From Solitalea lacus (lineage in GTDB: Bacteria; Bacteroidota; Bacteroidia; Sphingobacteriales; Sphingobacteriaceae), in NCBI RefSeq assembly GCF_022014595.1, contig NZ_CP091740.1:3150200-3214199 (forward strand): DNA of 64,000 nucleotides, written 5' to 3'. The notes under the pieces are model-generated. The model saw nothing but the letters and a program-made list of their open reading frames with translations. It searched no databases and was not told the DNA's origin. Both the position numbers and the translations under genes were made by a program. How positions within the stretch are numbered: the stretch's first letter is position 1; each line of letters starts with the position of its first letter. This document shows positions 48,778-55,506 of this stretch, piece after piece.

Positions 48778-50304
48778 TCACACAACATCGCAATACATAT
48801 TACTATACACTCTACCTTTTGCTAAAACTAACTGCTTATCAATGCATTTTGGCAAGTCAGTTTCATAATGCGAAACATAAATCAATGTCTTTCCTAGGTT
48901 TTTACAAATATCATCCACGATAGAAACAAATCTGTGAGTTTGATATTTGTCGAGACCCTGACATGGTTCGTCCAGAATCAACAATGGCGGATTTTTCACT
49001 AATGAGCGGATTAATAACAACAATCTTTGCTCACCCAATGAAGCCTTGTAAAACGGTTTATGTATTAAATGTTTCAACTCCATTGCCTCTATCCAATTAT
49101 ACGCAAGTTGCTGCTGTCGGTAGCTTACTTCAACAGAAGAGCCCATCTGATCATTAAAACCTGAGCAAACCGTTTCATAACAAGTAGTGCTCTCTTGCGA
49201 GAAGCCACTCAGGGTATAATCATTTACACTGCTGGTAATTGCTTCCACATAGGAACTTGTACGTTGAAAAAAATTATGCATTTCAGGAGAAACGTAGCCA
49301 ATTTTCCGCTTAATATCCCAAACGCTTTCTCCTGTACCACGCTTATTATCAAACAAATAAATGGTATTTAAATAAGCTTGAGGATTATCCCCTGTTATAA
49401 GACTAAGTAAAGTTGATTTTCCAGAACCATTATGACCTGTTAAAGCCCAATGTTCTCCTCGGTTCACCGTCCATGAAATGTCATCCAAAATCATCTTTCC
49501 GTCAAACTCAATTGACACGTTTTCCATATGAATGGCGCATTCAAATGAATTATTACAAATAGGTGTGTACTGTTCAATACCGTTCCATTCAATTGCTTTC
49601 AGATTGTTTAAATCCGGTTGATACATATCAAATGGAAAATTCCCGGGATTAAACGTTTGAACAATTCCGCCATCTTCTAATATCCAAATATGGTCGATAC
49701 ATTCAGGAATTTCTTCAACAGAGCTAATAATAACCAGAGTAACACCTTGATTTTTAAGAGTAAAAATTACCTGATGCAACACCTTGCGGGTCTCAGTATC
49801 TAAACCCACAAATGGCTGATCAAGAACTAACAAGCTTGGCTTTAACAATAATGCTTGTGCCAACTGAACCCGTTTCCCTTCTCCATTTGAAAGCTCAATA
49901 ACCGGTTGCTCTAATTTCTCCTCAAGCTTTAGCAATTTTATGATAGTCGCAGCTGTATCCTCTGTTGCACCCTGCAAGTCCAGTATTTTTTGAACAGTTG
50001 GAAATTCGTAGCTATAATTACGATCGTATCGCTGCCCAAAATAGGTTCTGGAGTGAAAGGAAAATCGAAAATCGTGTTGCTGATGCACAAATACCCTTGG
50101 CATGCTGTTCTCATTTATCTGAAAGGCACCCTCATTTATAGGATAGTGACCGGCAATTACCTTCCCTAGGCTGGTTTTGCCGCTTCCAGATTTGCCAGTA
50201 ATAACAATACATTCGCCCCTACTTACAGTAAATGAGCAGTTTTTTAACACCGGGTCGCGTTGCAATGACAAAGAAATGTTTCGAGCTTCTATTAATGTAA
50301 TCAT
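48778..50304 (-). CDS. Double ABC ATPase, ModF-like
   Basis: 508 residues, two full nucleotide-binding domains in one chain without membrane segments. Domain 1: Walker A TGKSGSGKTS, signature ELSNGEGKR, Walker B LLVLDQPFVGLD (Gln in place of the usual Glu). Domain 2: Walker A TGHNGSGKST, signature ASLGEQRLL, Walker B PLLILDEPCQGLDK and the H-loop VSHYETD. Arrangement fits E. coli ModF/PhrA. The role is unclear; molybdate linkage is by family only, and no modABC lies nearby. Confidence 0.85.
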   Translation of the reverse strand: MITLIEARNISLSLQRDPVLKNCSFTVSRGECIVITGKSGSGKTSLGKVIAGHYPINEGAFQINENSMPRVFVHQQHDFRFSFHSRTYFGQRYDRNYSYEFPTVQKILDLQGATEDTAATIIKLLKLEEKLEQPVIELSNGEGKRVQLAQALLLKPSLLVLDQPFVGLDTETRKVLHQVIFTLKNQGVTLVIISSVEEIPECIDHIWILEDGGIVQTFNPGNFPFDMYQPDLNNLKAIEWNGIEQYTPICNNSFECAIHMENVSIEFDGKMILDDISWTVNRGEHWALTGHNGSGKSTLLSLITGDNPQAYLNTIYLFDNKRGTGESVWDIKRKIGYVSPEMHNFFQRTSSYVEAITSSVNDYTLSGFSQESTTCYETVCSGFNDQMGSSVEVSYRQQQLAYNWIEAMELKHLIHKPFYKASLGEQRLLLLIRSLVKNPPLLILDEPCQGLDKYQTHRFVSIVDDICKNLGKTLIYVSHYETDLPKCIDKQLVLAKGRVYSNMYCDVV

Positions 50305-50456
50305 AGTATTTCCAGTTCAAGACTTCAAAAGTAATGGCTTTTGACAAATTCAAATCGGCGAACAGGCTATTCTTACGATGCCTAACAAGCTCTTTACAGT
50401 GATTTGCTTAAATTTCTGATTTTTGATCCTTATTTTCGAAGTCTAAACCCCAAAGA

Positions 50457-51083
50457 ATGATTAATATACAAGCTGTAAAGCATCAATATAACGGTTCAGC
50501 AGCTCTTCAATTTAAGAACTGGACTATTAACCAGGGCGAACACTGGCTGATGCTTGGCGGATCAGGAACAGGAAAAACCACCTTATTACACATTATAAGC
50601 GGGCTGTTACAGCCAACTGAAGGGACTGTGAATATTGAAGGAACCAACCTCTACAACTTAAAGGGGGCTGCCCTCGATCATTTTAGAGGAAGAAATATTG
50701 GAATCATCTTTCAACAACCTCATTTAATCAAAAATCTATCCGTACTAAACAATATTATGGTTGCCCAATACTTTGCAGGTTTAAAACAGGATAAACAACG
50801 TGCACTGGAAGTATTGAAATCATTGGGGCTGGGAGATAAAGGTAAAGCACTGCCAGCAGAACTAAGTCAGGGACAAATGCAACGGGTTGCGATTGCCCGT
50901 GCAGTGGTTAATCATCCTAAAATTGTAATTGCAGATGAGCCCACTTCTAGTTTAGACGATGCCAATACAGAAGCTGTATTAAAATTGTTAGAAGAACAGG
51001 CCGACAGGAACGGTGCCACATTGGTTATTGCGACCCACGACGAACGTGTAAAACAACGTTTTGCAAAACAATATGTACTTTAA
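50457..51083 (+). CDS. LolD/MacB-type ABC ATPase of the His-rich permease system
   Basis: 208 residues. Walker A GGSGTGKTT, signature LSQGQMQRVA, Walker B KIVIADEPTSSLD, H-loop VIATHDERVK. This is the LolD/FtsE/MacB class, which drives type VII ABC mechanotransmission. The cognate permease starts 60 bases downstream and three DUF3299-like genes follow. In composition the locus resembles, as I recall it, the zinc-regulated zrg operon of Vibrio (an ABC ATPase, FtsX-like permease, His-rich protein and DUF3299). Confidence 0.9.
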   Translation: MINIQAVKHQYNGSAALQFKNWTINQGEHWLMLGGSGTGKTTLLHIISGLLQPTEGTVNIEGTNLYNLKGAALDHFRGRNIGIIFQQPHLIKNLSVLNNIMVAQYFAGLKQDKQRALEVLKSLGLGDKGKALPAELSQGQMQRVAIARAVVNHPKIVIADEPTSSLDDANTEAVLKLLEEQADRNGATLVIATHDERVKQRFAKQYVL

Positions 51084-51143
51084 GCAATGACAGTAGTTTC
51101 AACTAGCATTTTAAAATTTTAAATCCTCATCTGAACATACTAA

Positions 51144-52460
51144 ATGAACTTAATAAAACTAAGTTGGTATAACTTAAAGGCTAATATCCTTTCTACATTA
51201 CTCAATGTATTGCTACTTTCTTTCGGTGTAGGGATTATTGCCTTACTGATGCTTGTTTCTGATCAAATTGGCAAAAAACTTGAGAATAATGCCAAGGGAG
51301 TAGATGTTGTGGTGGGGGCCAAAGGTAGTCCTCTACAACTTATACTTTCAAGTATTTATCATATTGATTTTCCTACAGGCAACATCAAACTATCCCAGGC
51401 GCAAAACATCATGCGTAATCCTGCTGTAAAAATGGCGGTTCCTGTTGGCTTGGGTGATAGTTATGAACAGTTTCGAATTGTGGGAACCAATGCAAAATTT
51501 GCAGAGCTATATGAATTGAGTTTGGCCAGTGGAAAACCTTTCGACGGCTTATATGAAGTAAATATTGGAGCAATCGTAGCCAAAGTAAAAGGACTTAAAA
51601 TTGGCGACACGTTTCATGGTTCGCACGGCTTAAGTGAAGGAGGAGAAGAACATCATGAGCATAATTATAAAGTTGTAGGAATTTACAATCAGACAGGCTC
51701 GGTAGTCGACAACCTTGTGCTGACCTCCATGGAGAGCATTTGGGGCATGCATGGTGAAGCTGCACATACTAGTCATCTTCAAGGCGAAATTGGAGCAACA
51801 GATCAACATGCACAAGACTTAGATGAGTCTCATTTGGTGCATGACCAATTCCATGGTGAAGCCCCTTTGGATAAAACGCCGCATACTCATGCCGAGATTG
51901 AAAATGAACCTGAAGATAATCGTGAAATTACTGCTTTGCTAATCAAATACCGATCGCCGGTAAGCATAGTTACCTTTCCTCGTTTTGTAAATGCCGAAAC
52001 CAATATGCAGGCTGCCTCTCCCGCCCAAGAAAGTGCACGCTTATTTTCGCTGATTGGTGTAGGGATTAAGGCGATACAATGGTTTGCAGGATTGATTATT
52101 ATTATTTCCATTTTCAGCGTATTTATCAGTTTGTATAATTCACTTAAAGACCGCAAGTATGATTTAGCTATAATCCGTACTATGGGCGCCCCACGCAGTA
52201 AAGTATTTATGCTGATTATAACAGAAGGACTATTATTGGCAATTATTGCAACAGTAATCGGCTTATTATGGTCGCATGGGGCTTTGGAAATTATTGGAAG
52301 CTATCAGGAGGCTGAACAAACCAAACTAACCGGAAAAGCGTTTGTAAAAGACGAATGGAAGCTAATCATAGGCGGACTCATAGTTGGTATTATTGCAGCC
52401 ATTATCCCTGCAATTCAAGCCTACAGAACGGACATATCAAAAACTTTAGCAGAGAAATAG
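51144..52460 (+). CDS. MacB/FtsX-like ABC permease with His-rich extracytoplasmic domain
   Basis: 438 residues, four membrane helices: N-terminal (about 13-38), then after a long external domain, three C-terminal (about 308-332, 355-385, 405-428; IISIFSVFISLYNSLKDRKY, LAIIRTMGAPRSKVF). The external domain has about 16 histidines in some 95 residues (about 168-262: FHGSHGLSEGGEEHHEHN, MHGEAAHTSHLQGE, HLVHDQFHGEAP, HTHAEIE). Such a stretch should bind Zn2+ or another transition metal. Known relatives in Vibrio have the histidines on a separate protein, so this looks like a merged version; that is inference. Confidence 0.88.
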   Translation: MNLIKLSWYNLKANILSTLLNVLLLSFGVGIIALLMLVSDQIGKKLENNAKGVDVVVGAKGSPLQLILSSIYHIDFPTGNIKLSQAQNIMRNPAVKMAVPVGLGDSYEQFRIVGTNAKFAELYELSLASGKPFDGLYEVNIGAIVAKVKGLKIGDTFHGSHGLSEGGEEHHEHNYKVVGIYNQTGSVVDNLVLTSMESIWGMHGEAAHTSHLQGEIGATDQHAQDLDESHLVHDQFHGEAPLDKTPHTHAEIENEPEDNREITALLIKYRSPVSIVTFPRFVNAETNMQAASPAQESARLFSLIGVGIKAIQWFAGLIIIISIFSVFISLYNSLKDRKYDLAIIRTMGAPRSKVFMLIITEGLLLAIIATVIGLLWSHGALEIIGSYQEAEQTKLTGKAFVKDEWKLIIGGLIVGIIAAIIPAIQAYRTDISKTLAEK

Positions 52461-52467
52461 TAAAGAA

Positions 52468-52935
52468 ATGAACAACCAAAATAAATTCAAATATTTAATC
52501 ATAATACTGTCGCTTTTTGCAACGTTAACTTCAAAAGCTCAAAAAGCAGATGCGCCTCCTGAACACTTGGCAATTAAATCCGCCAATTGGGATATTATTA
52601 ATGACCTGAGTTATAAAATGGATAAGTCTGGAGATTTTGCGCCGATTTTCAGTGATAGATTAAAAGCAATCAATGGTAAAACTATTGATCTAAAAGGATA
52701 CATAGTTCCGTTTAAAATGGGAGCAAAGCACAAGAATTTCGCAATTTCAGTATTACCAATTAGTCAATGTTACTTTTGCGGACAAGGAAATATTCCTCCA
52801 ATGGTTGAGGTTATTATGACAGAAGCCATCCCTTATTCGGATAAGGCAATTACCGTAAAAGGCAAGATAAAGCTTAATACAAATGATACCAACCATATGG
52901 AAATTATATTGGATCAAGCGGAACAAGTGAATTAG
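52468..52935 (+). CDS. DUF3299-like exported protein, copy 1 of 3
   Basis: 155 residues, signal peptide (FKYLIIILSLFATLTSKAQ). The conserved core is DLKGYIVPFKMGAKHKNFAI, ISVLPISQCYFCGQGNIPPM and VEVIM, then an OB-like end (TVKGKIKLNTNDTNHMEIIL). The CxxCG motif could bind a metal or do redox work. It starts 7 bases after the permease gene, so it is part of the same operon. Confidence 0.85.
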   Translation: MNNQNKFKYLIIILSLFATLTSKAQKADAPPEHLAIKSANWDIINDLSYKMDKSGDFAPIFSDRLKAINGKTIDLKGYIVPFKMGAKHKNFAISVLPISQCYFCGQGNIPPMVEVIMTEAIPYSDKAITVKGKIKLNTNDTNHMEIILDQAEQVN

Positions 52936-52947
52936 TGACGTTAAATA

Positions 52948-53547
52948 ATGAAGAAACAGAAACTAGTAACCCATCTAACCAATAACTGGAATGCTTTATT
53001 GTACATAATAGGCATTCTGGCACTTATTTTATTGTTTTCGCAGTTGCGCTTTACTGGTGAACATCAATCAAAGGAAAATACTGAAAACTCTTCAAAATTA
53101 ACAAACATCACTCCTGGTATTCCAGTTCCAAATGACACAACTCCTCCTCCCAATCATGAGTTAAAGCACATCATGATTAAAACAGAGGTGTGGGCTAAAC
53201 TTGCTCATCTAACCTACAGAAAAGAACTTATTAACGGTGAACAATGGACGTTCCCTATTTTTGGCCCTGAGATTAAAGCCATGGAAGGTGAAACAATTAC
53301 ACTTAAAGGTTATTTAATTCCTTTAGAACAAGGTAAAATTCAACAACATTTTATGATTTCTGTTTTACCGCTTAATCAATGCTATTTTTGTGGAAAATCT
53401 AAGGGAGTACCTGAAATGGTTGAAGTGCATATGAATGTACCTATCGATTTTACCGATAAAGTAATAGCTATCAAAGGAATTCTTCAATTAAATGAGCGTG
53501 ATGAGGAACACTTTGCCTTGATGCTAATGGGTGCTGAAATGGAATAA
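52948..53547 (+). CDS. DUF3299-like protein, copy 2 of 3, membrane-anchored
   Basis: 199 residues. It has an N-terminal hydrophobic anchor (LLYIIGILALILLFSQLRF), probably not cleaved, a Pro/Thr-rich linker (PNDTTPPPNHE), and the same core as its neighbours (TLKGYLIPLEQGKIQQHFMI, ISVLPLNQCYFCGKSKGVPE, MVEVHM). It is the longest of the three and starts 12 bases after copy 1. Confidence 0.85.
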   Translation: MKKQKLVTHLTNNWNALLYIIGILALILLFSQLRFTGEHQSKENTENSSKLTNITPGIPVPNDTTPPPNHELKHIMIKTEVWAKLAHLTYRKELINGEQWTFPIFGPEIKAMEGETITLKGYLIPLEQGKIQQHFMISVLPLNQCYFCGKSKGVPEMVEVHMNVPIDFTDKVIAIKGILQLNERDEEHFALMLMGAEME

Positions 53548-53603
53548 ATACCTGACAGAATCTCTTCACAAACCAACCCAAATTTAATTTAACCCAAAGC
53601 AAA

Positions 53604-54044
53604 ATGAAAAAACTGATCTATACTACAATTTTTATTCTGGCAACAATAACTGCAAAGGGACAGCATGTTTCCGATCTAATCAAATCTCCGGTATGGGATA
53701 TTATAGGAACATTAAAAATTAATACCGTAAATTCAGAAAAACAGGTTGCGGTATTTTCTCCCCAACTTAAGGCTATGGAAAATAAAAGAGTTGCATTACA
53801 GGGATATATGATTCCCATCGAAGAAAGCTTAAAACATAAACGTTTTTTACTTTCTACTTTACCAGTTAATCAATGTTATTACTGTGGAAAAAACGGAGTT
53901 CCTATTATGATTGAAGTTGAAATGGCCGAAGCAATCGAATTTACCTACAAACCGGTAATGATTTCAGGCACATTTAAGCTGATTTATGGCAATGCAGCCG
54001 AAAACGTTCCAATTTCTCTTGAAAAAGCCGTACAGGTTAACTAG
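53604..54044 (+). CDS. DUF3299-like exported protein, copy 3 of 3
   Basis: 146 residues, signal peptide (LIYTTIFILATITAKGQ). Core: ALQGYMIPIEESLKHKRFLL, LSTLPVNQCYYCGKNGVPIM, IEVEM, and a final SGTFKLIYGN strand. It is less like the other two, with shorter spacing between the cysteines and the P. A gap of 56 bases separates it from copy 2. The three copies together suggest division of labour in metal binding. Confidence 0.85.
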   Translation: MKKLIYTTIFILATITAKGQHVSDLIKSPVWDIIGTLKINTVNSEKQVAVFSPQLKAMENKRVALQGYMIPIEESLKHKRFLLSTLPVNQCYYCGKNGVPIMIEVEMAEAIEFTYKPVMISGTFKLIYGNAAENVPISLEKAVQVN

Positions 54045-55423: not shown

Positions 55424-55506
55424 AAAATTAAAGAATGATTATTTAATGCAAAACTAAAATAAAACGTGAGTGTTATGTAATTTTGACAATAAAACCTATT
55501 ACTTAT

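Follow-up and report, generated by a model that had tools for sequence, protein, structure and literature searches.

A putative ZrgA-free variant of the Zrg-type ABC system in Solitalea and other Bacteroidota

What is the task of an ATP-binding cassette (ABC) ATPase and a histidine-rich, FtsX-like permease whose genes are followed by three genes for similar proteins with a CxxC motif? The question is raised by a five-gene cassette at positions 50457-54044 of the window, as we call the whole stretch of 64,000 nucleotides analyzed here (Solitalea lacus, assembly GCF_022014595.1, contig NZ_CP091740.1). The original prediction, made from the sequence of the window, envisaged a zinc or other metal system akin to zrg of Vibrio, and its inventory is confirmed: the ATPase, the permease with 16 histidines and three DUF3299-like genes sharing the motif LPxxQCY(F/Y)CG are all present. 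We consider it probable that the cassette encodes a Bacteroidota form of the Zrg-type (MacB superfamily) ABC system, one that lacks ZrgA and handles periplasmic metal at the expense of ATP.

The part of MacB-type ABC machines in zinc starvation is unsolved, with acquisition indicated in Vibrio and export proposed in Pseudomonas (the literature is cited throughout from portions of the papers). A branch that dispenses with the separate metal-binding protein, keeps permease histidines across phyla and carries CxxC in its DUF3299 proteins might reveal a path for the metal and the residues to mutate. The Zrg-type core of the cassette is known; what appears to be new, as judged by sequence comparison, is the combination of a missing ZrgA, a histidine-rich permease loop and CxxC-containing DUF3299-like proteins. 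DUF3299 itself does appear in the published literature, and our literature search found nothing joining it with Bacteroidetes, nor FtsX with zinc and Bacteroidota. The genes, D1 to D3 being the DUF3299-like proteins, are:

50457..51083, plus strand: ABC ATPase (ZrgC-like, MacB/LolD type); open reading frame (ORF) of 208 amino acids, ABC_tran 124.9 bits, motifs intact
51144..52460, plus strand: FtsX/MacB-type permease (ZrgB-like) with a histidine-rich, putatively periplasmic part; ORF of 438 amino acids, FtsX and MacB_PCD matches
52468..52935, plus strand: D1, DUF3299-like CxxC protein with a signal-peptide-like start; ORF of 155 amino acids
52948..53547, plus strand: D2, DUF3299-like CxxC protein with an N-terminal hydrophobic (putative membrane-anchor) stretch; ORF of 199 amino acids
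53604..54044, plus strand: D3, DUF3299-like CxxC protein with a signal-peptide-like start and an OB-type fold model; ORF of 146 amino acids

Homology of the cassette to the Zrg systems

The five ORFs lie on the plus strand with 7 to 60 bases between neighbours, and their order is identical in all four Solitalea genomes (this one, S. agri, S. longa and G002), the nearest named genomes being S. agri and S. longa, with permeases 79% identical to the present one. The ATPase has intact Walker A, LSQGQ, Walker B and H-loop motifs, and the permease matches both FtsX (54.0 bits, cut-off 25.5) and MacB_PCD (35.4 bits, cut-off 27).

The zrgABCDE genes have been described in Vibrio, where the DUF3299 protein is ZrgE, along with PA4063-PA4066 in Pseudomonas (PMC9817125, PMC9820375, PMC11481552, PMC8561739). 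Searched by tblastn with the permease as query, plasmids gave matches in 92 records, none covering more than 80% of the query; those on Phaeobacter plasmids reached E 3e-27, and one of these plasmids (L124) encodes, in this order, a Fur-family regulator, a DUF2796 protein, an ATPase, a permease and a DUF3299 protein. This DUF2796 protein scored above the cut-off for ZrgA in Pfam (PF10986, 164.5 bits) and just under it in NCBIfam (180.3 of 185 bits). An operon of Aeromonas caviae (L123) likewise consists of ZrgA (PF10986, 195.7 bits), an ATPase, a permease and a protein with the sequence GACIHVPPPP. In profile-profile comparison, the permease matched those of Phaeobacter, Paracoccus and Deinococcus with E 9.8e-61 over 398 columns. 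Given that both the permease and the CxxC proteins (below) are related to parts of ZrgA-bearing operons, we regard homology of the cassette to the Zrg core as very likely, and the link to Vibrio zrg that had been proposed stands.

In the comparison with ZrgABCDE, for which L123 and L124 supplied the sequences and the papers alone the Vibrio system, both sides have an ATPase, a MacB-type permease with a large periplasmic domain and conserved histidines, and then a DUF3299 protein. The differences are that ZrgA (DUF2796) is not detectable in Solitalea, that the permease loop has 8 histidines versus 0 and 1, that the DUF3299-like proteins carry CxxC and come in three copies, and that neither a Zur site nor a Zur-like regulator was found in the Solitalea genome. 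The Pseudomonas aeruginosa system PA4063-PA4066 is described as having the same three core parts (PMC11481552, PMC8561739); its first gene, PA4063, is of the ZrgA type, its PA4066 (Protein Data Bank entry 4hsp) has the solved fold closest to that of D3 and lacks CxxC at the homologous place of the alignment, and the system has been proposed to export pyochelin-cobalt (PMC11481552).

No match to ZrgA (PF10986) was found in the S. lacus genome, and none above the cut-off in any of 50 permease-bearing Bacteroidota genomes, with the Phaeobacter operon as positive control (E 2.6e-49) and a single sub-cut-off match of 20 residues in G063. This set comprises 41 of the 50 permease-bearing genomes of a 296-genome survey and nine nearer relatives of Solitalea; the nine survey genomes left out of later work (G079, G134, G165, G175, G177, G185, G288, G323 and G339) gave matches that were for the most part weaker or split.

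Relatives of the permease and ATPase were also seen on plasmids of Deinococcus radiodurans (L125:605-5098) and Paracoccus aminovorans (L126:835-5068), where they are preceded by genes for an alkaline phosphatase and for an unnamed protein of some 150 amino acids. A Pfam search of the hypothetical proteins at these two loci returned no family, and no DUF3299 or DUF2796 gene is listed there; this type is perhaps another branch with a binding protein of its own.

Conserved histidines and CxxC proteins

Although about 16 histidines had been assigned to the external domain of the permease, 15 lie between the first and second transmembrane segments (residues 40-307) and His378 lies in the C-terminal membrane part. 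The 15 histidines in 268 residues compare with 3.4 expected from the surrounding ORFs (binomial p 2e-6, in a post hoc test made only after the histidines had caught attention). Conservation singles out three of them in an alignment of 55 permeases (51 from Bacteroidota, two from Alphaproteobacteria, one from a gammaproteobacterium and one from Deinococcus): His161 and His203 are present in all 55, across three phyla, and His170 in 52, the remaining three having a histidine one residue later. A variable loop starts directly after His203:

51624..51752, plus strand: codons of permease His161 to His203, with His170 within; conserved in the alignment of 55 permeases
51753..51926, plus strand: variable histidine-rich loop, permease residues 204-261, 8 histidines; compared in 51 Bacteroidota permeases

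Counted without His203, the loop has 0 to 27 histidines (median 5) in the 51 Bacteroidota permeases, 0 and 1 in the two ZrgA-bearing operons of Phaeobacter and Aeromonas, 7 in Paracoccus, where the unnamed protein lies alongside, and 0 in Deinococcus. It thus seems to be richer in histidine on average, not always, where ZrgA is missing, two ZrgA-bearing permeases having been compared. The proposal that the histidines reside on a separate protein in Vibrio and in the permease here therefore holds for this cassette and for the absence of ZrgA in the 50 genomes; given the range from 0 to 27, a histidine-rich loop is not a constant feature of the Bacteroidota permeases. The structure model of the permease was unusable (predicted local distance difference test, pLDDT, 34.5; 3 sequences) and yields no structural statement on His161, His170 and His203.

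The proteins D1, D2 and D3 share the motif LPxxQCY(F/Y)CG...P-x-M-(V/I)-E-V, with D1 and D2 being 40% and 35% identical to D3. By eye, D2 starts with a hydrophobic stretch, and D1 and D3 start like signal peptides. Against the DUF3299 profile (PF11736, cut-off 22 bits), D3 scored 20.5 bits, D1 13.8 and D2 13.0, so the label "DUF3299-like" is the right one; a PF11736 search of the S. lacus genome returned nothing at E 0.001. Profile-profile comparison of the D proteins with canonical DUF3299 gave E 3.3e-13. The best match of the D3 model (pLDDT 82) in the Protein Data Bank was PA4066 (4hsp; Z 8.3 over 98 residues, root-mean-square deviation 2.9; Foldseek E 4e-3), followed by OB folds of unrelated function with Z 7.3 and below; because the score of PA4066 is only slightly above those of unrelated folds, the fold match counts together with the sequence evidence and not alone. 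Taken together, these comparisons identify D1-D3 as apparently divergent DUF3299/ZrgE proteins.

The CxxC motif occurs in 49 of 57 D proteins (one gene, in L047 and L089, was counted twice). Of the eight without it, two have C-[FY]-F-H-M-P (L088, L101) and two have C-[FM]-H-V-P-P-P, as in the canonical family (L121, L122), while C-C-[FY]-S replaces CxxC in the other four (L113, L114, L115, L119). The second cysteine thus appears to occupy, or adjoin, the position of the histidine of other members, as would be expected for a changing set of metal ligands.

In the phylogenetic tree, D1, D2 and D3 each form one clade across four Solitalea species (support 99/98, 100/99 and 97/92), and G015 contributes two genes that cluster with D3 (100/99), so that the split between D1 and D3 predates the genus. 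Since three D genes also follow a permease in another family (L050), the triplication, correctly predicted here together with a putatively anchored copy, is neither recent nor unique. At one locus (L117:5603-6493), a single gene fuses MerC and DUF3299 domains, both above the Pfam cut-offs (DUF3299 27.3 bits), with an ATPase and a permease alongside and two CobW genes downstream. Single DUF3299-like genes were also observed without a permease, about 2 kb or less from a CobW/COG0523 gene (L037:9551-10096, L040:7688-8224).

Distribution, gene neighbourhood and candidate operators

The permease was detected in 50 of 296 sampled Bacteroidota genomes (E 1e-20 or better), and 16 of 60 nearer relatives had a match to the D profile. 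The permease is immediately preceded by the ATPase gene at 42 of 51 loci and followed by a D gene, at a distance of up to 2.5 kb, at 37; L104 (G230), where no permease ORF was recognised, is omitted from these loci, and L047 (the place of L089) and L050, with a permease, also stand outside them.

When neighbouring ORFs at 62 loci were clustered, CobW/COG0523 ranked first behind the three core families, at eight loci (six with a permease, two with D alone), and a second Fur and MerC occurred at three loci each; many of the clusters that comprise 3 to 5 loci are due to kinship of the genomes. A part of the neighbour families was named, by eye, some of them being checked against Pfam. Within 10 kb of the permease, MerC was found in nine genomes versus 0.13 expected (27 genes in 23 of 50 genomes), CobW in six versus 0.27 (56 genes in 32 of 50 genomes) and the Fur family in three versus 0.48 (101 genes, 50 genomes; this count lacks the second Fur of G340, which is above E 1e-5), all in post hoc tests of neighbours already seen and in related genomes. 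The gene-neighbourhood survey thus brings MerC and COG0523 close to the permease, in keeping with the predicted Bacteroidota metal pathway; the import that had been suggested is a candidate direction only, and export has been proposed for the Pseudomonas relative (PMC11481552). A term search of the COG0523 paper PMC2770081 showed no mention of "Bacteroid-".

Of the 27 MerC genes, 7 have a Fur-family gene at most 1.5 kb away, and in two of these GTP cyclohydrolase I adjoins MerC. Second-Fur (Zur-like) loci, mostly with MerC adjacent, are L137:1303-2823, L138:732-2244, L139, L140, L142, L143 and L148; GTP cyclohydrolase I also adjoins at L137 and L138, and the palindrome TGCAA-N5-TTGCA stands in front of the second-Fur loci. 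A dyad search upstream of the second-Fur and MerC genes found TGCAA-N5-TTGCA as an exact match in 9 of 23 regions, where any dyad reached at most 2 in 5 shuffles; it was derived from the very 23 regions counted, some of which share one intergenic region, and the shuffles preserve base composition only. The nine exact palindromes come from nine different genomes, including G002 (L148), the sole Solitalea genome with a second Fur. Written in a longer form, TGCAAC-N3-GTTGCA, the palindrome recurs at second-Fur and MerC genes and in some cases at the cassette. The combination of second Fur, MerC and palindrome is a candidate Zur regulon of Bacteroidota, and the survey thereby supplies a candidate operator for a Bacteroidota second Fur and a link to MerC; a literature search for MerC with Zur and zinc, limited to titles and the beginnings of abstracts, found nothing on this link.

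The palindrome also occurs near the Zrg-type genes. With at most one mismatch, it precedes the ATPase in 4 of 42 regions versus 0.4 expected, and the 2.5 kb upstream of the permeases are 2.4 times denser in palindrome sites than the rest of the loci (12 sites in 123 kb versus 31 in 773 kb, p 0.011). The window as a whole holds about as many sites as chance would give (6 versus 3.1 expected, with 14 of 100 shuffles as high). In genome-wide counts at one mismatch against reversed controls, made in ten genomes, S. lacus has 11 versus 4 and G003, G027 and G030 have 6/6, 4/4 and 10/10; because several of the ten show no excess, we draw no regulon from the palindrome. Zinc control is likely in some lineages. 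Here, the Zur-type site anticipated upstream of 50457 was not found and no palindrome stands in the window, nor was a Zur site or Zur-like regulator found in the S. lacus genome, where a different type of Zur or box is possible.

Competing explanations and a possible mechanism

Zinc, or zinc and cobalt, is the substrate favoured by the family-level evidence: in V. parahaemolyticus, limiting zinc induces the zrg genes 76- to 206-fold and Zur acts as a repressor of zrgA (PMC9817125), and the conserved histidines, the variable cysteine and histidine positions and the metal-related neighbours point to the same kind of role. In the mechanism that we tentatively envisage, with distinctly less confidence than the assignment of the cassette to periplasmic metal, the ATPase would power motions of the periplasmic domain of the permease (mechanotransmission), a MacB-type permease not being built like a classical metal channel. 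His161, His170 and His203, with the adjacent flexible histidine-rich loop, might trap periplasmic zinc (or cobalt), a task that ZrgA performs in other systems; the DUF3299 OB-fold proteins, with CxxC where other members carry Cys-x(1,2)-His, might accept the metal or pass it on, D2 acting while anchored in the inner membrane next to the permease and D1 and D3 serving as soluble carriers. We infer the identity of the metal, the direction of its movement, the spatial clustering of the three histidines and every transfer step. A wider and more speculative scenario, which we consider possible but unlikely as a whole, is a ZrgA-free zinc pathway of Bacteroidota in which Zur would act on TGCAAC-N3-GTTGCA in several lineages, with MerC proteins and GTPases of COG0523 as partners; the metal site (the three histidines and the loop) would be part of the ABC motor, which would mechanically load cysteine-bearing OB-fold metallochaperones, one of them anchored beside it. 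In Solitalea genomes without second Fur, MerC and a ZnuB-type importer, the cassette could then be a main route of metal acquisition.

Several observations weigh against the metal-handling reading, in addition to the post hoc nature of the enrichment tests and the weak proximity of the Fur family. The core is not always complete: at 14 of the 51 permease loci the 2.5 kb downstream contain no D gene (L117, where the MerC-D fusion lies upstream, and a locus that stops at the end of its contig are among the 14), and at 9 the permease is not immediately preceded by an ATPase gene. The S. lacus genome has one Fur-family gene only, and searches for a second Fur, MerC, ZrgA and PF00950 (ZnuB-type) found no match in it; the ZnuB-type importer was not found in any of the four Solitalea genomes (G000-G003) and is present in 21 of the 50 permease genomes, and MerC is absent from three of the four. 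CobW was rejected as a partner in this genome, where the single copy is of a short (323 amino acids) type and about 37 kb distant. As for the palindrome, none stands upstream of 50457 (the best site has 3 mismatches), two-mismatch versions precede the ATPase in 9 of 42 regions versus 5.8 expected (shuffles up to 11), six of the 12 sites near permeases fall within called ORFs, and it is absent, at one mismatch or fewer, from all 11 regions in front of long CobW genes. Single zrgE knock-outs of V. cholerae had no growth effect and the histidine-rich loop of ZrgA was not essential (PMC9820375), and PA4066 is reported to have no evident zinc binding (PMC11481552). An intact cassette in a genome without second Fur, MerC, ZrgA and ZnuB fits a role that is constitutive or otherwise controlled.

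The other explanations draw on parts of the same evidence. If the ATPase and permease cleared metal, or a metal-ligand complex, from the periplasm, the histidine and cysteine parts would be sensors or traps of excess metal; such an exporter has a precedent in the proposal of cobalt-pyochelin export for PA4063-PA4066, where cobalt accumulation in PA4065 mutants has been reported (PMC11481552), and accords with the MacB-type permease domain. We nonetheless consider it unlikely, given that Vibrio genetics indicates zinc acquisition (PMC9820375) and that no MacA- or TolC-like protein is among the nine proteins in and around the cassette covered by the scan, which extended neither to the remainder of the genome nor to the relatives; in MacAB-TolC, moreover, the ATPase is fused to the permease, and the two are separate genes here. 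Sorting of lipoproteins or other envelope components by a LolDE- or FtsEX-like machine, with the metal features incidental, appears highly improbable. The ATPase-permease architecture of LolCDE, FtsEX and MacAB is indeed alike, FtsE and LolD are the top NCBIfam names for the ATPase, and LolF and LolE are the best sequence matches of the permease among solved structures (E 1.6e-5 and 2.3e-3). Yet the scores are far under the family cut-offs, with the ATPase below those of LolD (176.9 of 307.75 bits), FtsE (187 of 265) and MacB, and the permease below that of LolCE (56.2 of 362.45); the LolF match is significant in permease residues 283-375 only, and LolF has no histidine at positions 161 and 170, in the N-terminal part of the match that scores just 0.2 bits, whereas the match to the Zrg permeases spans 398 columns. 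Co-occurrence with lipoprotein-sorting genes, named at the outset as a finding that would speak against a metal system, was not seen among the nine proteins scanned, which include no partner for lipoprotein sorting or cell division and no MacA.

Maturation of a metal centre or thiol-redox chemistry, in which the CxxC OB proteins would relay copper, haem or disulfides to an enzyme of the periplasm and be released by the ABC part with ATP, is quite unlikely in our estimate. An ABC motor combined with a periplasmic chaperone, as in NosDFY/NosL or CcmABE, offers a possible working analogy, although these are other protein families. The NosL paper suggests a sulfur role for NosDFY, so that the metal relay is a tentative analogy. 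Such a role would suit the CxxC in 49 of the 57 D proteins, the OB-type fold, the one putatively anchored copy and a glutathione-peroxidase-like gene at 55483; it would also suit, as a further point against metal handling, the recurrence in four loci of a flavoprotein of the thioredoxin-reductase type (L040:5185-6144, L044:8213-9139, L088:2719-3684, L093:12155-13063), and a protein with CxNCH, cytochrome c-like by eye, in four loci of one family (cluster 20). The flavoprotein family (pyridine nucleotide-disulphide oxidoreductase type) was named from a Pfam check of one further member, L138:3055-3960, near the second-Fur/MerC pair. These flavoprotein genes may belong with the CobW or second-Fur/MerC genes that they adjoin, the gene resembling cytochrome c tracks the conserved gene order of one family, Cys-x-His, Cys-x-x-His or Cys-Cys in other D proteins suits changing metal ligands better than a disulfide, and the proximity of MerC and CobW is far above chance. 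The assignment to a Zrg-type system for periplasmic metal thus remains the one we favour. For ZepA, a separately described zinc system, the outline and a term search of PMC10957091 showed no link to the cassette.

The genes flanking the cassette, a divergent dual ATPase (48778-50304), a DUF2147 protein and the glutathione-peroxidase-like gene, give no clear metal hint. Across Solitalea, the downstream neighbours are common and the upstream ones partly differ. A short block is nevertheless kept in front of the ATPase gene, at the same place and with 0 to 2 differences in all four genomes, although the genes upstream of it partly differ:

50382..50398, plus strand: block CTAACAAGCTCTTTACA, 17 bases, upstream of the ATPase gene, from the upstream alignment; promoter or operator are candidate roles

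With up to 3 mismatches on both strands, this block has 19, 18, 30 and 21 matches in G000, G001, G002 and G003 versus 11, 10, 25 and 13 for the reversed sequence, a modest genome-wide excess, and the best match in each of the four genomes is the site at the cassette.

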